NCBI RefSeq assembly: GCF_002210345.1
Contig: NZ_MWQI01000002.1
Coordinates: 186,001 to 250,000, forward strand
Length of the DNA: 64,000 bases
Source: Fibrobacter sp. UWB4
GTDB taxonomy: Bacteria; Fibrobacterota; Fibrobacteria; Fibrobacterales; Fibrobacteraceae
Direction of reading: 5' to 3'
The translations under genes and the position numbers were made by a program. Shown piece after piece: positions 12,407 to 60,791 of the stretch. Every line of letters starts with the position of its first letter. Positions within the stretch are counted from its first letter, which is position 1. The notes under the pieces were generated by a model that saw only the letters and a program-made list of their open reading frames with translations, had not been told where the DNA came from and ran no database searches.

Positions 12407-14791
12407 ATGCTTGATTACATTTCGATTCGCGGTTGCAGACTTCATAATTTAAAGAATGTCAACGCCCAGTTTCCGCTGGGGAAAATTACGGTTGTATGCG
12501 GACCGTCGGGTTGCGGAAAATCAACACTCGTGATGGACACGCTCCATGGCGAAAGCAAGCGACGTTATCTCGAGACGCTCTCGCCTTTTGCAGCGGACTT
12601 GCTCGGTGGCAAGCGAAGCATTCCGCTTGACAGCGCCGAAGGACTCCCGGCTAGTTTGGCGATTGCCGCCACACGCGGAGAAGCGCCCGCAAAAGCATCT
12701 GCACTTTCGATTGCCGAATGCGACAATGCATTGCGTACATTGTTTGCAACGTTTGCGAAGCCATCTTGCCCGATTTGCGGCGCTCCGATGGTGAGTCAAA
12801 GTCGCGAAGAGATCATTCGCGAAATTGCGGGAATGCCAATAGGGACAAAACTACAGTTTTTGGCGAAAATCGAGTTAAATGAAAGTCGCACGACGCTCGA
12901 CAAGCTATCGGCGGTGTTTTTGGCACAAGGTTTTACACGTGCCATTGCCGATGGCACCATGTATTCGCTTGCAGACTTGCTCCCTGGCGAAAAAGTCTTG
13001 ACGCCCAAAGAATTTTTCATCATCGTCGATAGAATCATCGTCCGCGAAAACACGCGTACGCGAATCGCAGAAGCCGTTGACGGAACATTAAAGCTGACGC
13101 ATTCCGCAATAACGCTTGACATTGCAGGTGAACGCAAGTTCTACAGCACAAAGCCGTGCTGCCCGAACGCAGGCGACGAGCAGCATCAAAAAAGCGACGT
13201 ACAAGAGGCTATCGCAAGCCTGGATGCACGGGCATTCTCGCCCTACAACCGCGCAAGCGTCTGTGAATACTGCGAGGGCACGGGACTTCTGGAATCTTCG
13301 GAAAGCGACGAGAACGAAAACACAGAATGCCCGCATTGCCAAGGACTCCGCCTCAAGAAAACATACTTGAATGCCTCTGTTGACGATGTCAGTTACAAGC
13401 AAATTCTCACAACGGAATTTGCAGAATTGCCAGAACTTTTGCACCAAATTTTTGACAATAAAGTCGGTCAAAATCTAAAGGCGACTTTCAATTCGCTCCT
13501 CGACCGCATTGAAGCTATCAACGATTTGGGAATTGGTTACCTCACGCCAGGGCGCGCGGGGCAAACGCTTTCGGGCGGCGAATTGCAAAGACTCAAGCTC
13601 GCAAGCCTCAGCACAGGGCACTTGAACGGACTTTTGATAGCGCTTGACGAACCCGCCAGCGGTCTCCACGCTAGCGATGTCACAGCACTTTGGAAAGTCC
13701 TCGAGAAAATCCGCAAGCGCGGTAACACGCTCGTACTCATCGAGCACAATCCGCAAATTATCAGCCGCGCGGACTACATCATCGAAATGGGTCCTGGCGC
13801 AGGCGAAAAGGGCGGCGAGATTTTATTCCAAGGCGCTCGCGACGAAGTACTTGAAAATCCGGGATCGCCCACGGGGAAGTGGCTCAATGAATTAGGAATT
13901 AGGAAGTCGGAATTTGGAATTAAAGGAGATTCCCGCTCGAAGGATGACACGGCAATCCTCGTCGAGAACTTCGCGAAGTTTGACATGGCGCCAGTCAACG
14001 CAGCCTTCCCCATCAACAAATTCAGCGTGATTACCGGCCAAAGCGGCAGCGGAAAATCGACACTCCTTTTCGAAAACATTGCCAAACGCGCGAAAGCAGA
14101 AGAATTCAAAAAACTCGGCATCGACGCTCTTTCGATTCTCACGACTGGCGATTTCCACGGAAGCAAGCGCAGCACGGTCTTGAGCGCCATCGGGCTTGCC
14201 ACACTATTACGCGACTTGTTCGCCAAACTTCCCGAAAGCAAAGTGCGCGGCTACACCGCCTCCAAATTCAGCATGCACACCCCCGGCGGTCGCTGCGAAA
14301 ATTGCAAAGGCGAAGGAGTCATCTACGATCCGCTCGGCTACGAAGAATCCGAATGCCCCGTTTGCCTCGGCAAGCGCTTCCGCGATGAAGTCTTGGAAAT
14401 CCGATTCAAGTCGCTTTCCATAGCCGACATCTTGGACATGGAAATCGGTAGTGCATACAAGCTCTTCACGAACATGAAACCGTTCGCCGAAAAACTGAAA
14501 CCGCTCGTAGACACTGGCCTTGACTATCTGAAGCTCGGGCAAACAACAGCGCACCTTTCCGGTGGCGAACGCGCACGACTCCGCCTTTCCATCACGCTCG
14601 CACGAGCTAAAGCACCGAACACGCTATTTCTCTTTGACGAACCTGCCCGAGGTCTCCACCAAAAGGACATCCAGCAGTTGCTCAGCCTCATTCACGGGCT
14701 TTGCAATGCAGGCCACACCGTCATTGCCATAGAACACGCCCAAGACTTCGTCGACGCCGCGGATTATGTGGTGGAACTGAAGAGAGGCTAG
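12407..14791 (+). CDS. Short UvrA-family ABC ATPase lacking the insertion domain
   Basis: 794 aa, against about 940 for canonical UvrA. Two ABC halves are present: Walker A GPSGCGKST (residues 32-40) with signature LSGGELQRLKLA, and GQSGSGKST near residue 543 with LSGGERARLRLS. CPICG and the later CENC/CPVC zinc motifs are kept. In the first zinc module the usual CPxCG reads CPNAG, and CEYCEGTG is joined to CPHCQG by only about 17 residues, so the insertion domain is missing. UvrA proteins recognise damaged DNA with UvrB; short paralogues of this kind are linked to specialised damage or drug tolerance. A heptamer array is translated at residues 495-506, in the linker between halves. Confidence 0.88.
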   Translation: MLDYISIRGCRLHNLKNVNAQFPLGKITVVCGPSGCGKSTLVMDTLHGESKRRYLETLSPFAADLLGGKRSIPLDSAEGLPASLAIAATRGEAPAKASALSIAECDNALRTLFATFAKPSCPICGAPMVSQSREEIIREIAGMPIGTKLQFLAKIELNESRTTLDKLSAVFLAQGFTRAIADGTMYSLADLLPGEKVLTPKEFFIIVDRIIVRENTRTRIAEAVDGTLKLTHSAITLDIAGERKFYSTKPCCPNAGDEQHQKSDVQEAIASLDARAFSPYNRASVCEYCEGTGLLESSESDENENTECPHCQGLRLKKTYLNASVDDVSYKQILTTEFAELPELLHQIFDNKVGQNLKATFNSLLDRIEAINDLGIGYLTPGRAGQTLSGGELQRLKLASLSTGHLNGLLIALDEPASGLHASDVTALWKVLEKIRKRGNTLVLIEHNPQIISRADYIIEMGPGAGEKGGEILFQGARDEVLENPGSPTGKWLNELGIRKSEFGIKGDSRSKDDTAILVENFAKFDMAPVNAAFPINKFSVITGQSGSGKSTLLFENIAKRAKAEEFKKLGIDALSILTTGDFHGSKRSTVLSAIGLATLLRDLFAKLPESKVRGYTASKFSMHTPGGRCENCKGEGVIYDPLGYEESECPVCLGKRFRDEVLEIRFKSLSIADILDMEIGSAYKLFTNMKPFAEKLKPLVDTGLDYLKLGQTTAHLSGGERARLRLSITLARAKAPNTLFLFDEPARGLHQKDIQQLLSLIHGLCNAGHTVIAIEHAQDFVDAADYVVELKRG
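13889..13923. repeat. Heptamer array inside the uvrA-like reading frame, 5 units
   Basis: Units GAATTAG, GAATTAG, GAAGTCG, GAATTTG and GAATTAA with exact 7-bp period. It is read without a stop as ELGIRKSEFGIK between the two ABC halves. The same words (in register AGGAATT, CGGAATT) make up the intergenic array at 53003-53037. Confidence 0.75.
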
Positions 14792-20863: not shown

Positions 20864-21541
20864 ATGTCCGTTAAACTTGAAGAATCTTGGCTAAAACTGC
20901 TCGCCGACCAGTTCGAACAGCCATATTTTAAGCAAATCAAGGCAAAACTTTTGCAGGAACACGCGGAACATCACGTGGTGTATCCCCCCGGACCGCAGAT
21001 TTTTGCAGCCCTCGACTATTGCCCCGTCGATAAAGTCAAGGCAGTCATCATCGGACAAGACCCGTACCACAATCCGGGCCAGGCTCACGGGCTTTGCTTT
21101 TCCGTGCCGTTCGGAATCGAGCCACCGCCCTCCCTCATCAACATTTTCCAAGAACTCCACGATGACCTCGGCATCACACCTCCGCCTCACGGAAACTTGG
21201 AAGGTTGGGCCCATCAGGGAATTTTGCTTTTAAACGCCTCGCTCACGGTGCGCGCCCACATGGCTGCCAGCCACGCAGGCATTGGCTGGCAGCAGTTCAC
21301 GGACACGATCATCCAACGACTTTCGCAAGTCCGCGAGAACCTAGTCTTTTTGCTCTGGGGCAGTTTCGCCATCAAAAAGCAGGTGCTCATCGCACCCAAT
21401 CGCGGCCACCTGATTCTCACCGCTCCGCACCCGAGTCCGCTCTCGGCATACCGCGGATTCTTCGGCTGCAAGCACTTTAGCAAGGCAAACGCTTACCTTG
21501 TCAGCAAGGGGCTTGAACCCATCGACTGGAGCATTAAATAA
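20864..21541 (+). CDS. ung: Uracil-DNA glycosylase, family 1
   Basis: 225 aa, normal length. The water-activating motif GQDPYHNPGQAHGLCFSV carries the catalytic Asp. LLLNASLTV and the DNA-intercalation motif HPSPLSAYRGFFGCKHF are intact. The enzyme removes uracil from DNA in base-excision repair. No Shine-Dalgarno sequence is visible; a repeat array runs right up to the ATG. Confidence 0.97.
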   Translation: MSVKLEESWLKLLADQFEQPYFKQIKAKLLQEHAEHHVVYPPGPQIFAALDYCPVDKVKAVIIGQDPYHNPGQAHGLCFSVPFGIEPPPSLINIFQELHDDLGITPPPHGNLEGWAHQGILLLNASLTVRAHMAASHAGIGWQQFTDTIIQRLSQVRENLVFLLWGSFAIKKQVLIAPNRGHLILTAPHPSPLSAYRGFFGCKHFSKANAYLVSKGLEPIDWSIK

Positions 21542-21611
21542 AGTAGGAAGTAGACAGTAGGCTGTAGGAAGTGATTAGTGGTTAGTAAACAGTGGTTGGT
21601 GGTTTGGTTCG
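21542..21611. repeat. Heptamer array, 10 units
   Basis: AGTAGGA, AGTAGAC, AGTAGGC, TGTAGGA, AGTGATT, AGTGGTT, AGTAAAC, AGTGGTT, GGTGGTT, TGGTTCG: exact 7-bp period for 70 bp, beginning at the ung stop codon. Confidence 0.8.
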
Positions 21612-39651: not shown

Positions 39652-39663
39652 CGGCTTCGCCGC

Positions 39664-39746
39664 AGTTACTAGTTAATAGTTATTAGTTACTAGAGATTGC
39701 AATATAAACATTTCTAGTAACTAGTAACTCGGAACTTGAAACTACG
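39664..39746. repeat. Convergent heptamer array pair (hairpin-forming)
   Basis: Left arm AGTTACT, AGTTAAT, AGTTATT, AGTTACT, AGAGATT; right arm, read on the other strand, AGTTTCA, AGTTCCG, AGTTACT, AGTTACT, AGAAATG. AGTTACTAGAGA pairs with TTTCTAGTAACT at the tip. It lies between the convergent cyclase and panC genes. Confidence 0.75.
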
Positions 39747-39759
39747 CGCATCAGCGCGC

Positions 39760-41773: not shown

Positions 41774-41795
41774 GCCCCAAATATAGTCATTTTTT

Positions 41796-41908
41796 AGTTA
41801 ATAGATACTAGTCATTGGTCGTTAGTCATTGGTCATTAGTTACTAGCGATTCAAAAAAAAGAAATTTTCTAAGAACCAATAACTAGTGACTTAGAACTAA
41901 GAACTCGC
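41796..41908. repeat. Convergent heptamer array pair, 8 plus 6 units
   Basis: Left: AGTTAAT, AGATACT, AGTCATT, GGTCGTT, AGTCATT, GGTCATT, AGTTACT, AGCGATT. Right arm on the other strand: GCGAGTT, CTTAGTT, CTAAGTC, ACTAGTT, ATTGGTT, CTTAGAA. An A-rich spacer separates the arms. Confidence 0.8.
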
Positions 41909-45213: not shown

Positions 45214-45305
45214 CAAGTAGACGGTAGACAGTAGGAAGTAGACTGTAATAAGTTTGGCGGCAAAGCCGCGATTATAGACTTCCTACTTTCAACTTCCTAC
45301 TTCCA
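45214..45305. repeat. Convergent heptamer array pair directly before the sigma-54 activator gene
   Basis: Left units CAAGTAG, ACGGTAG, ACAGTAG, GAAGTAG, ACTGTAA, TAAGTTT; right units ATTATAG, ACTTCCT, ACTTTCA, ACTTCCT, ACTTCCA, inverted relative to the left. A CGGCAAAGCCG hairpin sits at the tip. The array ends 6 nt before the next ATG and takes the place of a ribosome site. Confidence 0.8.
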
Positions 45306-45311
45306 ACTAAA

Positions 45312-46679
45312 ATGCCATCCATCGACTTTTTCACAAAAGAAACTTCGACGTCCTCGTTCATCTTGGACGTCCTTTCTTCTGTGGATAACACCGTCGATGT
45401 TCACACCCCAACAAGCGACAAGGCGCCCGAAATCGCAGAAGCTTTGCGCACTCCGCTCGCCGCAATTGTCATCTGGGACCTCGATTCTTTCACTGCTAAA
45501 AATGCAGAATTGCTTTCGAGCCTTCGCGAATTCAGCCCGGATTCCATGATTCTCGCCTACGCGGAATCACCCGAACGCTACAGCGAAGTTTCAAGCAAGC
45601 TCTACGACACGATTCTCTCCGTCGAAGCGCTTCGCCTCCACCTGATGAGCAAGATTGCGAGGCTCAAGGAAATCTACAACGCAAAGCGCATTTTCCGCGA
45701 AAGAATGTCGCACCTCGTCGGCAAAAGCGAAGCCATGCAGCACCTCCGCAAAAAAGTGGAACGCGCCATCTTGCACACGGGTCCCGTCCTCATCCAAGGA
45801 GAATCGGGCGTCGGCAAAGACCTAGTCGCACGAGCCATCGCTTGCGTTTACGACAAATTCGTCACCGTCAACTGTAGCGCCATTCCAGAATCACTTTTCG
45901 AAAGTGAACTTTTCGGCCATACGCGCGGAGCATTCACAGGCGCCCAAAACGAACGCATAGGTCTTTTCGAAGATGCAAACGGCGGCGCCATCTTCCTAGA
46001 CGAAATCGGCGATATGCCACTACACGCACAAGTCAAGCTGTTGCGCGTCATCCAGAATCACGAGATCCGCCCCATCGGTGCAAACAAGACGCGACACATC
46101 GACGTGCGCATCATCGCCGCCACAAACCGAGACCTCCGCGAAGAAATCCGCGAAAAACGCTTCCGCGAAGACCTTTACTACCGCCTGAACGTAATTCCGA
46201 TGCAGCTTTCGCCGCTCCGCGACCGCAAAGAAGACATCGAAGACTTGGCGAATTACTTTATCCGCCAGTACGCCCCCGAAGGCGAGCCTTACACGCTCTC
46301 GCCAGAAGCTTTACAAAAGCTTCAGAACCACAACTGGCCAGGCAACATTCGCGAACTCGAAAACGTCATCCAGCGCGCCCTCTGCTTTACAGACCCAGGC
46401 ATTTTACGTGCCGAAGATTTGCAAATCGACGAAAGTTCCGACAGCTATTCAACAAGCTTTACTAGCGCCGATCGTGCCGCGATAAAAGCATTCAACGCGA
46501 GCAATTACGAAGAATTCCGCGACTTGCAGCTCGACGAAGAACGTGAATTTTTGAAATCGACCATCCGCAATTGCGATGGTTCCGTAAGCCTTGCCGCCGA
46601 ACGGCTCCGCATGAACCGCACGGCCCTCTACAACCGACTCACACGACTTGGCTTAAGCGTTAAAAACGTTCAATCTTAA
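45312..46679 (+). CDS. Sigma-54-dependent transcriptional activator with degenerate receiver
   Basis: 455 aa. Residues 1-120 resemble a receiver fold ([20 protein letters not shown]) but lack the usual acidic pair and the Lys context, so phosphorylation is doubtful. The AAA+ domain (~135-370) has GESGVGKD, the sigma-54 loop GAFTGA, DEIGDMP and the arginine-finger stretch [14 protein letters not shown] Fis-type helix-turn-helix ([27 protein letters not shown]) ends the protein. It would activate RpoN promoters. No Shine-Dalgarno sequence is seen; its last 20 nt overlap the convergent TraB-like gene. Confidence 0.92.
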
Positions 46680-52924: not shown

Positions 52925-52997
52925 TGTCATTCCCGATTTAATCGGGAATCTCCATCTCGCTCATAAAAAGGCGATGCCGGAACAAGTCCGGCATGAC
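52925..52997. repeat. Two REP-like palindromes
   Basis: TTGTCATTCCCGATT/AATCGGGAATC (52925-52950) and ATGCCGGA-ACAAG-TCCGGCATGACA (52974-52997), in opposite orientation, downstream of tsaE. Confidence 0.65.
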
Positions 52998-53002
52998 ATC
53001 TT

Positions 53003-53037
53003 AATTCCTAATTCCGAAATCCTAATTCCGAATTATT
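53003..53037. repeat. Heptamer array, 5 units, abutting a stop codon
   Basis: AATTCCT, AATTCCG, AAATCCT, AATTCCG, AATTATT; on the other strand AGGAATT/CGGAATT, the same words as in the uvrA-like gene. It touches the stop codon of the gene at 53038. Confidence 0.75.
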
Positions 53038-53724
53038 TTAGACTTTTTTGCGTTTCTTACGAGCATGTTTCTTGTTCGCTTTTTCAATGGAATCAGCAAC
53101 AGCTTTTGCACGGAGTTCCGCAGCGACCTGTGCCAAAGAATCCGCAACAGCCTTAGCCTTCGCAATCGAATCGGCACGAGCAGCGGCAGCAGCGACACTA
53201 GCCTTGATGGCATCGTTTTCTGCAATGTTGTTCCAGTCCTTGCGGTCCCCCTGACTTAAAAGCATCGGCCCCTTGTAATCCTTCACGACATTGAATGCTG
53301 CAACGGTATCACGGGCAGCCATGGCACCCATAGCTTCAGCATACAGGTCCTTCTGCTGGTTGCGCAAGTCTTCAATCGCGCCCAGACGGTTCTGGCGGAG
53401 GATTTCCATGGAATCGCTCACAAAGCCCAAGTCCCACGTTTCGTTATAGCAGGCTTCGGCTTCCACATACTTAGCTGCATCCGTTTCAGCGGCTACATAC
53501 AAAGCATCGCACTTAGCAAAAGCATCCGCACTCTTTTGCTTGGCATACTGGTAGTAGTAATAACAACCGACAATCAAGCCAGCAAGCACCAGCAAGAACA
53601 CGCCGTCCTGCCAGCCCATAATCGGCGCCTGCGGAAGTTTCGGTCTCCCGTTAACGGTTTCACCGGCTTCCAGTTTTTCTTCAGCCTCGTCAAACGGGCT
53701 TTTTCCATTCAAGAAACTAAACAT
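53038..53724 (-). CDS. Single-pass membrane protein with Ala-rich helical tail, unknown function
   Basis: 228 aa. A cytoplasmic N-terminus (MFSFLNGKSPFDEAEEKLEAGETV), one membrane helix (GVFLLVLAGLIVGCYYYYQ, ~40-58), a helical region (~60-170) and a coiled-coil-like Ala/Lys tail (RADSIAKAKAVADSLAQ, LRAKAVADSIEKA) ending in a strongly basic KKHARKKRKKV. No family is recognised. It follows sufE by 9 nt on the same strand, so it is probably the last gene of that operon. Confidence 0.75.
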   Translation of the reverse strand: MFSFLNGKSPFDEAEEKLEAGETVNGRPKLPQAPIMGWQDGVFLLVLAGLIVGCYYYYQYAKQKSADAFAKCDALYVAAETDAAKYVEAEACYNETWDLGFVSDSMEILRQNRLGAIEDLRNQQKDLYAEAMGAMAARDTVAAFNVVKDYKGPMLLSQGDRKDWNNIAENDAIKASVAAAAARADSIAKAKAVADSLAQVAAELRAKAVADSIEKANKKHARKKRKKV

Positions 53725-58361: not shown

Positions 58362-60791
58362 TTACTTGATGGAGAACTTCTTGAACCGACCCGCAGTATA
58401 AAGCAAATAGGAACCAGAAGAATTTAAAGTTACATCAATTGAGCCTGCAACTGCATAGCCGCTATGAACAAGGCTTCCCTGCATATTGAAAATCGCATAT
58501 TTTTCGCCATGAGGAACACCAGAAACATGCAAAGCCTTCCCCGAAACATCTATATGGATACTCCGATACACAATGGAGGGAATGTCTTGCTTTTGCATTG
58601 AACTTGAAGATTTCTCCGCACTGAATGACGACTTACCGACACTTGAAGAAGACTTCACAGAGCTGGATGAAGGTTTCGTTGAGCTAGACGACAATTTTTC
58701 AGAACTTGATGAAGTGCCAATGACACTAGCACTGGATTGATTTTGTGAACTGGACGAAATTATACCGCTGCTAGACAGCAACATTTCAGAGGAACTAGAT
58801 TCTTCAAAAGAACTGGAACTGATCAAAATCTCGATTGAACTTGAAGAGACTTCAAATTCAGAAGAGCTTGAAAGCAACAGACTTTCTGACGAGCTGGACA
58901 TTTCTTCTTCTGACGAGTTTGAAAGAACAGGTTCTTCCGAGGAGCTTGATTCTTCAGAAAAACAGGAACTGATCAATTCCTCGATTGAACTTGAAGAGAC
59001 TTCAATTTCAGAAGAGCTTGAAAGCAACAGATTTTCTGACGAGCTGGACATTTCTTCTTCTGACGAACTTGAAAGAACAAGTTCTTCCGAGGAACTAGAT
59101 TCCTGTTGTTCAGATGAACTAGATTCTTCAAAGGAACTGGATGAAACTTCTATTTCTAAAGAATCATAGACGGCGTAATATTTTGCATCAGCTTTCGCAG
59201 GCACAACAGCCTTATCCCACCCCTTGAACGAGTAAGAATACTTTTCTGTAGATTCTCGCAGCGGAGTCCCTTCATACACGTACGTCTTGCCATACTGAAC
59301 ACTCTGCGATTCGATCAACGTAGAATCCCAATTAAAGAACGAAATTTCATAAAAGACATTGCTCATATCCTTGAACTTTGCCGAGACAGTCTCGTTCTGC
59401 GTAAACACGCTAGAAGCACTTACTTGTGTACCACCACTCGTAAACCAGCCCTCAAATACATAATTTTCTGCAGCCGAAGGCGTTGCCGGGAACGCGACTT
59501 GCCCCTTGGCATTGGAATATTGAGTAGACAAAGTCGTGCTGCCATTCTTAAAAACAATTTTATTCGTCTTCTTATCGCTGAGCATTGCCACATAAGCATA
59601 GCCTCCATTGATAGTCCAGACTCCATTACTAGAAGTTTTGGTGCCGCAAAGCATATTCATGTCGTAAGCAAATGAACCCACTTTCATTTGTGCTGTCGTT
59701 CTTCCCTCAACCTTTTTTCCAATCGATCCGTTATTCTTGCCAACGGCACTTTTGTTTGCCAATACTGTTTTATCATAAATGACGCAATCCCCAACCGTTC
59801 CTGAATTTACGGCTACAGCACCACCTACATAATAATCGCCACTAACACTCCCTTTTACTTTACTTGTGCTTAAGGCATCCCAAAGTTTTGCACCGTTATT
59901 ACTCATACCAACAAGACCACCGGCATAAGCATACCCGTAATCTGTAGTAGACCCCGTAGATCTCGCCGACGCTTGCCCGACAACTTCGCCGTGGTTGCTC
60001 ACGTGCTTGATTTCACCATCGTTCGTTCCACTTATTCCCCCGGCGTACGATGCGGCCATCCCATCATTAGCGGTCATTTGTGCCCCAACCCAAGCGTAGT
60101 TGGCACTGTTCCAAATGAGCTTTTCATTGACTGCTGCAATGCCTCCTGCATATCCGTAAAGCATCGACAAGTTATTCGAGGTTACGCTTGCCTTCGCGCT
60201 AATAGAGGCTTTATTGAAACAGTAACGAATTTCGCCCTTGTTTTCACCAGTAATACCACCAGCATAAAGATACGCCGTTCCAGAACTTACCGTACTTGTC
60301 ACCTTGACACTGTTGTTACCGACATTGTAAATTGTTCCGTAATTATGAGCCGCCACAGCCCCCGCATATTCTGAACTTGTAACAGAGCCCACATTTAGGC
60401 GCAAATTTTTCACTGAGCCACTGCTACCGATATATCCAAACAAACCGACATTCGAACCACTCGCCTTAAGACCGTAGACGACCTTTCCGTTACCCTCGAA
60501 AATGCCATTGAACGGTTTGCTGCTTGAACCAATCGGAGTCCAGTTGGTACCACAGGTTTTCGTTTCATCGGCTCCCATGACAATATTCGCCGAAAGCACC
60601 GCATTTATCGTATTTTTTCCGCCATTCACCGTTGCGGCAAACCAAGCCAAATGATTCGGAGTGGAAATCGAGTAGTAGCTCTTGCCATTGATTGTAGTCG
60701 TTCCAGGCTGAATCTTGCCACCAGTCCATGCTGCGAATGCTTGATTAAAAAGCGAGAAAATGAGTAAAAAAACAAGGGACTTGATTTTCAT
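58362..60791 (-). CDS. Secreted GLUG-repeat surface protein with duplicated Ser-rich linker (paralogue 2)
   Basis: 809 aa from ATG 60791 (signal peptide to NQAFA). It opens WTGGKIQPGTTTINGKSYYSISTPNHLAWFA like paralogue 1, followed by GLUG repeats (GLFGYIGSSGSVKNLRL, AGGITGENKGEIRYC, AGGISGTNDGEIKHVSN, AGGLVGMSNNGA). An InlB/Listeria-Bacteroides repeat (~385-460: YVFEGWFTSGGTQVS, VSAKFKDMS) precedes a 190-residue Ser/Glu linker containing a 50-aa tandem duplication. A C-terminal sorting-type domain (ALHVSGVPHGEKYAIFNMQGS...GSYLLYTAG) ends it. Probably an outer-surface adhesin. Confidence 0.86.
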   Translation of the reverse strand: MKIKSLVFLLIFSLFNQAFAAWTGGKIQPGTTTINGKSYYSISTPNHLAWFAATVNGGKNTINAVLSANIVMGADETKTCGTNWTPIGSSSKPFNGIFEGNGKVVYGLKASGSNVGLFGYIGSSGSVKNLRLNVGSVTSSEYAGAVAAHNYGTIYNVGNNSVKVTSTVSSGTAYLYAGGITGENKGEIRYCFNKASISAKASVTSNNLSMLYGYAGGIAAVNEKLIWNSANYAWVGAQMTANDGMAASYAGGISGTNDGEIKHVSNHGEVVGQASARSTGSTTDYGYAYAGGLVGMSNNGAKLWDALSTSKVKGSVSGDYYVGGAVAVNSGTVGDCVIYDKTVLANKSAVGKNNGSIGKKVEGRTTAQMKVGSFAYDMNMLCGTKTSSNGVWTINGGYAYVAMLSDKKTNKIVFKNGSTTLSTQYSNAKGQVAFPATPSAAENYVFEGWFTSGGTQVSASSVFTQNETVSAKFKDMSNVFYEISFFNWDSTLIESQSVQYGKTYVYEGTPLRESTEKYSYSFKGWDKAVVPAKADAKYYAVYDSLEIEVSSSSFEESSSSEQQESSSSEELVLSSSSEEEMSSSSENLLLSSSSEIEVSSSSIEELISSCFSEESSSSEEPVLSNSSEEEMSSSSESLLLSSSSEFEVSSSSIEILISSSSFEESSSSEMLLSSSGIISSSSQNQSSASVIGTSSSSEKLSSSSTKPSSSSVKSSSSVGKSSFSAEKSSSSMQKQDIPSIVYRSIHIDVSGKALHVSGVPHGEKYAIFNMQGSLVHSGYAVAGSIDVTLNSSGSYLLYTAGRFKKFSIK
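58790..59089. repeat. 150-bp tandem duplication in the linker of paralogue 2
   Basis: TCGATTGAACTTGAAGAGAC begins at both 58831 and 58981, and the surrounding ~150 bp match with few changes, giving two 50-aa units (IEVSSSSIEELISS / FEVSSSSIEILISS type). Boundaries are approximate. Confidence 0.8.

Follow-up and report, generated by a model that had tools for sequence, protein, structure and literature searches.

Dispersed heptamer arrays and REP-like palindromes in the variable linker of a UvrA-like ATPase of Fibrobacter

The UvrA-like gene and its heptamer array

The DNA analysed here, called the window in the following, is a stretch of 64 kb from Fibrobacter sp. UWB4 (genome G000), taken from an assembly of 18 contigs which is 99.99% complete with 2.31% contamination. 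Rfam yielded one tRNA in this 64-kb window and nothing else. On the plus strand, positions 12407–14791 encode a UvrA-like ATPase of 794 amino acids, which has two ABC halves and a UvrA interaction domain. The best matches of this reading frame are UvrA models, which it hits below their curated cut-offs (604 bits against 729.8 for TIGR00630), and solved UvrA structures such as PDB 2r6f are found among its matches. The protein is like the UvrA family (TIGR00630; 2r6f) in its two ABC halves and its UvrA interaction domain, and unlike it in the score below the cut-off, in the length of 794 residues and in that the domain search of the protein gave no match to the UvrA DNA-binding domain. A long duplicated UvrA coexists with it in the same genome, and the shorter protein is, as predicted from its sequence, an accessory UvrA-like protein.

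Between the two ABC halves, positions 13889–13923 of the plus strand are made up of the units GAATTAG GAATTAG GAAGTCG GAATTTG GAATTAA, which are read as ELGIRKSEFGIK (residues 495–506, E495–K506). Five translated heptamers of exact period had been reported at this place in the initial annotation, and the sequence itself, TRF (period 7, 4.9 copies, score 47) and the in-frame reading frame bear this out. Directly 3' of the array follows the remnant of a REP-like palindrome, GGAGATTCCCGCTCGAAGGATGACA (13925–13949, plus strand; compare GGAGATTCCCGCTCGGAGGCGGGAATGACA in the orthologue L039). The hypervariable linker segment extends from 13886 to 13954 on the plus strand and has 23 codons here. It had been described as encoded by the array, which is indeed translated and situated between the ABC halves but accounts for only 12 of the approximately 23 linker residues. 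From a structure model of the protein (mean pLDDT 67, pTM 0.49) we took only the low confidence of the linker, in which residues 499–513 have a pLDDT below 50.

Since 35 nucleotides leave a remainder of 2 when divided by three, the array by itself is not enough to restore the reading frame, and the idea that the number of units does so had to be abandoned: the frame is restored by the linker as a whole. It had also been stated that such an array is tolerated only with all three phases open. A single frame is read through it, yet this frame walks through every phase of the unit. A pure GGAATTA array would meet TAG once per 21 nucleotides, and units 3 and 4 (GAAGTCG and GAATTTG) avoid this triplet. 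The adenine creating TAG is absent from 11 of 23 coding units as compared to 3 of 33 intergenic ones (p = 0.0015), a comparison in which the units are not independent of each other and which is partly circular because an open reading frame must be free of stops.

Heptamer arrays in the window and in the genome

Ten arrays of period 7 occur in the window, where first-order Markov simulations led to an expectation of 0.2, and none of the other periods from 4 to 15 gives more than four. The intergenic array on the minus strand at 52993–53038 (AATTCGG AATTAGG ATTTCGG AATTAGG AATTAAG) shares the unit words of the array in the gene, as had been correctly pointed out before, and it is followed by the REP-like palindrome GTCATGCCGGACTTGTTCCGGCAT, as the array in the gene is by its REP remnant. 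Another intergenic array with TAGGAAG and TAGACAG units is located at 21537–21586 on the plus strand. Two inverted pairs of intergenic arrays are seen at 39658–39749 (GTTACTA ... TAGTAAC) and at 45216–45313 (around a GGCGGCAAAGCCGC palindrome); such pairs, a further one of which lies at 41795–41905, are a frequent arrangement of the intergenic arrays, several more being present in the 600 kb described next. They are in some cases arranged around a GCCGC palindrome, and each could fold as one long hairpin. A tandem repeat at 58785–59102 with a unit of 150 bp (2.1 copies, 90% matches) is unrelated to the heptamers.

A scan of 600 kb of contig 1 of the same genome (C1:1-600000), with genes called by a simple codon-score script, found 74 arrays of period 7, the top count among periods 4 to 15, and 65 of these (about 88%) are located between called genes. 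Four to five units are present in 62 of the 74, the low end of this range being set, and the peak at five partly caused, by the detection window of 35 bp. Fifty of the 74 arrays contain no three GG runs and have the same unit numbers. Where an array lies between two genes of like orientation, its G-rich strand runs against the genes in 22 cases and with them in 9. The pattern GGAAKTM has 183 matches in this genome and 3 for the reversed-pattern control. Among 60 genomes it is essentially confined to the genus, with one match outside Fibrobacter, and four carrier genomes have a median count of 21.5 versus 1 in the rest (p = 0.004). Arrays of a second unit, GACGARA, are likewise dispersed; of 11 loci sampled, 8 have exactly four units, and TTA is often found just before the arrays.

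Of the REP words accompanying arrays on the G-rich strand, 20 stand on the 3' side and 2 on the 5' side (p = 1e-4), and REPs are near 21 of the 74 arrays compared to 12% of random intergenic sites. REP families, including membership in the CGTC family, were recognised by motif only, and palindromes headed by GTCAT were seen by eye in linkers and flanks. Neither a target-site duplication nor a mobilising enzyme was found. Transposases of the IS200/IS605 type were considered as mobilisers and rejected, as they are present in only 12 of 41 genomes and have no evident relation to the arrays.

The linker in Fibrobacter orthologues

Forty two distinct Fibrobacter UvrA-like sequences were collected. 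All comparisons among them are between species, the genome collections having one genome per species, and many of the relatives are metagenome assemblies in which arrays may be misassembled. The linker ranges from 54 to 207 bp (18 to 69 codons) and is a multiple of three in every sequence. The second half of the protein has 277–278 codons in nearly all orthologues and 277–284 overall, one of the 42 records being cut by a contig end. When the orthologues are aligned, insertions and deletions are found at five loops and at the termini and hardly anywhere else. Frame-shifting changes in length which would switch the gene off, as in a phase-variable contingency repeat, were not seen between species, all 42 linkers keeping the frame.

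At least 33 of the 42 linkers contain a dispersed repeat as judged by motif, namely GGAAKTM heptamers, GACGARA heptamers or palindromes resembling CGTC REPs, and a significant period of 7 as compared to codon shuffles is present in 14. The GGAAKTM type occurs in six linkers (L001, L015, L017, L038, L041, and L045). GACGARA arrays have four units in L023, L025, L046, and L049, a palindrome inside the array in L029, and 13 units arranged in blocks of 21 nucleotides in genome G007. The REP-like palindromes are of the kinds GTCATTGCGAG, GTCATCCTGAGC, GTCATCCCCGCGA, and GATTCCCG..CGGGAATGAC. Absence of the array from orthologues had been suggested as something to look for, and most of them are indeed without it and have other repeats in its position. 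GAATTAG, which is seen as RELDE/KELG in orthologues, or GAATTAGAC stands at the start of many array-less linkers.

On an orthologue tree built without the variable loops the linker classes are scattered. The sister species G009 and G003, whose proteins are separated by about 0.017 changes per site, have heptamers and a REP, respectively, in their linkers, and the insert has been turned over between them. A second loop of the protein, near residue 158, contains REP-like inserts in L009, L029, L039, L040, L042, L045, and L049, examples being KEIPGQAGNDK and KEIPDQVRDDK.

Repeat-filled loops in other genes and controls

Heptamer arrays and REP-like inserts were also found in three further genes of the same genome, which we take from reading their sequences to be TruB (L146:18888-19940), DusB (L084:7865-9085), and a member of the LysE family (L162:18548-19234). 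One loop in each of them is short or empty in some species, with the sequences QGAALTVSRA in TruB and KGFDDP in DusB, and filled in others with the same repeat families that occur in the uvrA-like linker. The repeat families of the intergenic regions also stand in frame inside conserved genes. In uvrA, TruB, DusB, and the LysE-like gene, the G-rich strand of the arrays runs with the gene.

The LysE-like genes of G027, G015, and G002 have shared flanks and arrays of 32, 53, and 179 nucleotides, the steps between them being 21 and 126 nucleotides, or 3 and 18 units. As an in-frame change made by unit number alone has to be a multiple of three units, these steps show selection for frame on arrays that change in length. 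Length variation in steps of three units, which had been foreseen for the UvrA-like gene, is therefore seen in the LysE-like gene and fits the G007 linker (13 versus 4 units), but all six linkers of the same type as in the window have about five units, with no variation in number.

A paralogue served as a control. The UvrA of about 1774 amino acids in the same genomes consists of two UvrA copies in one chain (L095, G000:C5:124400-130100). It was read in 15 Fibrobacter genomes, in all of which it is conserved, and no insertions or deletions were found at the linkers between its halves among these 15 orthologues. Homologues from other families (L113 and L114) have short, unrelated linkers with no period of 7; distant homologues with the same residues as in the window but no such period were sought in these two and not found.

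Origin of the linker arrays

The explanation that probably accounts best for these data is that dispersed array and REP elements enter permissive protein loops, where they are selected for frame, turned over and possibly lengthened by three units at a time. Fibrobacter genomes would contain hundreds of short dispersed elements, each of four to five degenerate heptamers and often with a CGTC-REP-like palindrome 3' on the G-rich strand. Copies consisting of an array, a REP or both would enter a few permissive loops, the linker between the ABC halves of the UvrA-like protein among them, and would do so as units. Survivors would be those copies which are free of stops and with which the length of the linker as a whole stays divisible by three, the others being lost. 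Copies in the linker, which is presumably near-neutral, would be translated and, within short evolutionary times, replaced by other copies. An array of period 7 that has entered a gene may change by units, perhaps by slippage or unequal exchange, and selection for frame would let pass steps of three units (21 nucleotides, 7 residues). The initial proposal that a repeat process acts on coding DNA is supported, and so is the reading that dispersed heptamers now form part of the translated linker.

An alternative which is unlikely, if less so than those that follow, is growth in place, by which replication slippage would have amplified a GAATTAG heptamer of the earlier linker and the same process would have produced the intergenic arrays independently. 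The many array-less linkers that already begin with GAATTAG or GAATTAGAC would be in line with this, as would the expansion in place by 21-nucleotide blocks seen in the LysE-like genes and the linker of G007, and GAATTAG may predate the array and have been the starting point of a local expansion. Growth in place would however leave unaccounted for the unrelated REPs which occupy the same loop in sister species, the four to five units found inside and outside genes alike, the position of the REP on the same side of the array in genes and between genes, and the empty sites in DusB and TruB. The arrays resemble short elements, of four to five units and accompanied by REPs, more than free-running slippage tracts.

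It is quite improbable that the repeats are adaptive, with linker length or charge tuning the UvrA-like ATPase and the repeats supplying the variation on which selection acts. The wide range of linker lengths could be taken in its favour, and an altered activity of repair genes by the REPs they contain was speculated on by Di Nocera et al. 2013 (PMC3733652), but the loops of TruB, DusB, and the LysE-family gene behave alike and the linkers of the paralogous UvrA do not vary, so that tolerance fits better than a role specific for repair. An artefact of assembly or contamination, which the many orthologues from metagenome assemblies might suggest, can practically be dismissed given the completeness of the window's own genome and the recurrence of the pattern with intact frames in about 40 independent assemblies.

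Beyond the entry of dispersed elements into permissive loops, a more far-reaching view, which we regard as possible though doubtful, is that Fibrobacter spreads composite elements, each a heptamer array of fixed number with a REP behind it, through a mechanism not yet described which sets about four to five units whatever the sequence of the unit. A defined group of proteins would repeatedly gain new linker segments from these elements, and the segments would grow later in steps of 21 nucleotides.

Relation to known repeats and significance

Related intragenic repeats are already known; in the literature searched, none of the papers found dealt with such repeats in Fibrobacter. The GGGAATC repeats of Xanthomonas and GGGGAYT repeats of Nostoc are G-rich heptamers with a preference for about four units, and in Xanthomonas the arrays are mostly intergenic with 7–11% intragenic (PMC4692102). 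The Fibrobacter arrays are likewise genome-wide, over-represented and mostly intergenic with an intragenic minority, and have a similar preference for near four units; they differ in that their units are degenerate and of several kinds and in that REPs follow the arrays. Four G-tracts for a G-quadruplex of the Xanthomonas and Nostoc type are not a general feature of the Fibrobacter arrays, and as arrays without G-runs also have four to five units, a G-quadruplex cannot be the common reason for the unit number. The TAACTGA heptamers of Beggiatoaceae form intergenic arrays of 2–6 units with some in reading frames at protein edges, and the authors of that study anticipated that modular proteins would tolerate insertions between their parts (PMC4679880). 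TAACTGA is one fixed word found mostly just upstream of start codons, whereas Fibrobacter has many related words, and here the loops bearing arrays were followed across the genus.

Small dispersed repeats inside genes, uvrA and uvrB among them, are known as the RPEs of Rickettsia and the CGTC REPs (PMC3733652, PMC2229807). The Fibrobacter elements resemble both in standing in frame in conserved proteins, and their REPs, recognised by motif, are candidates for the CGTC-tagged palindrome with a stem of 8–9 bp. Fibrobacter adds to these systems heptamer arrays, families alternating at one loop, about 40 species and a paralogue as control.

The independence of the unit number from G-runs speaks against the G-quadruplex as a general explanation of why heptamer arrays have a fixed size. 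The REP literature has raised the question why repair genes such as uvrA contain REPs, and tolerance of the loop explains this better here than repair function. Fibrobacter offers a natural series over about 40 species in which unrelated dispersed repeats have overwritten the linker of one protein, and a paralogue from these genomes serves as control.
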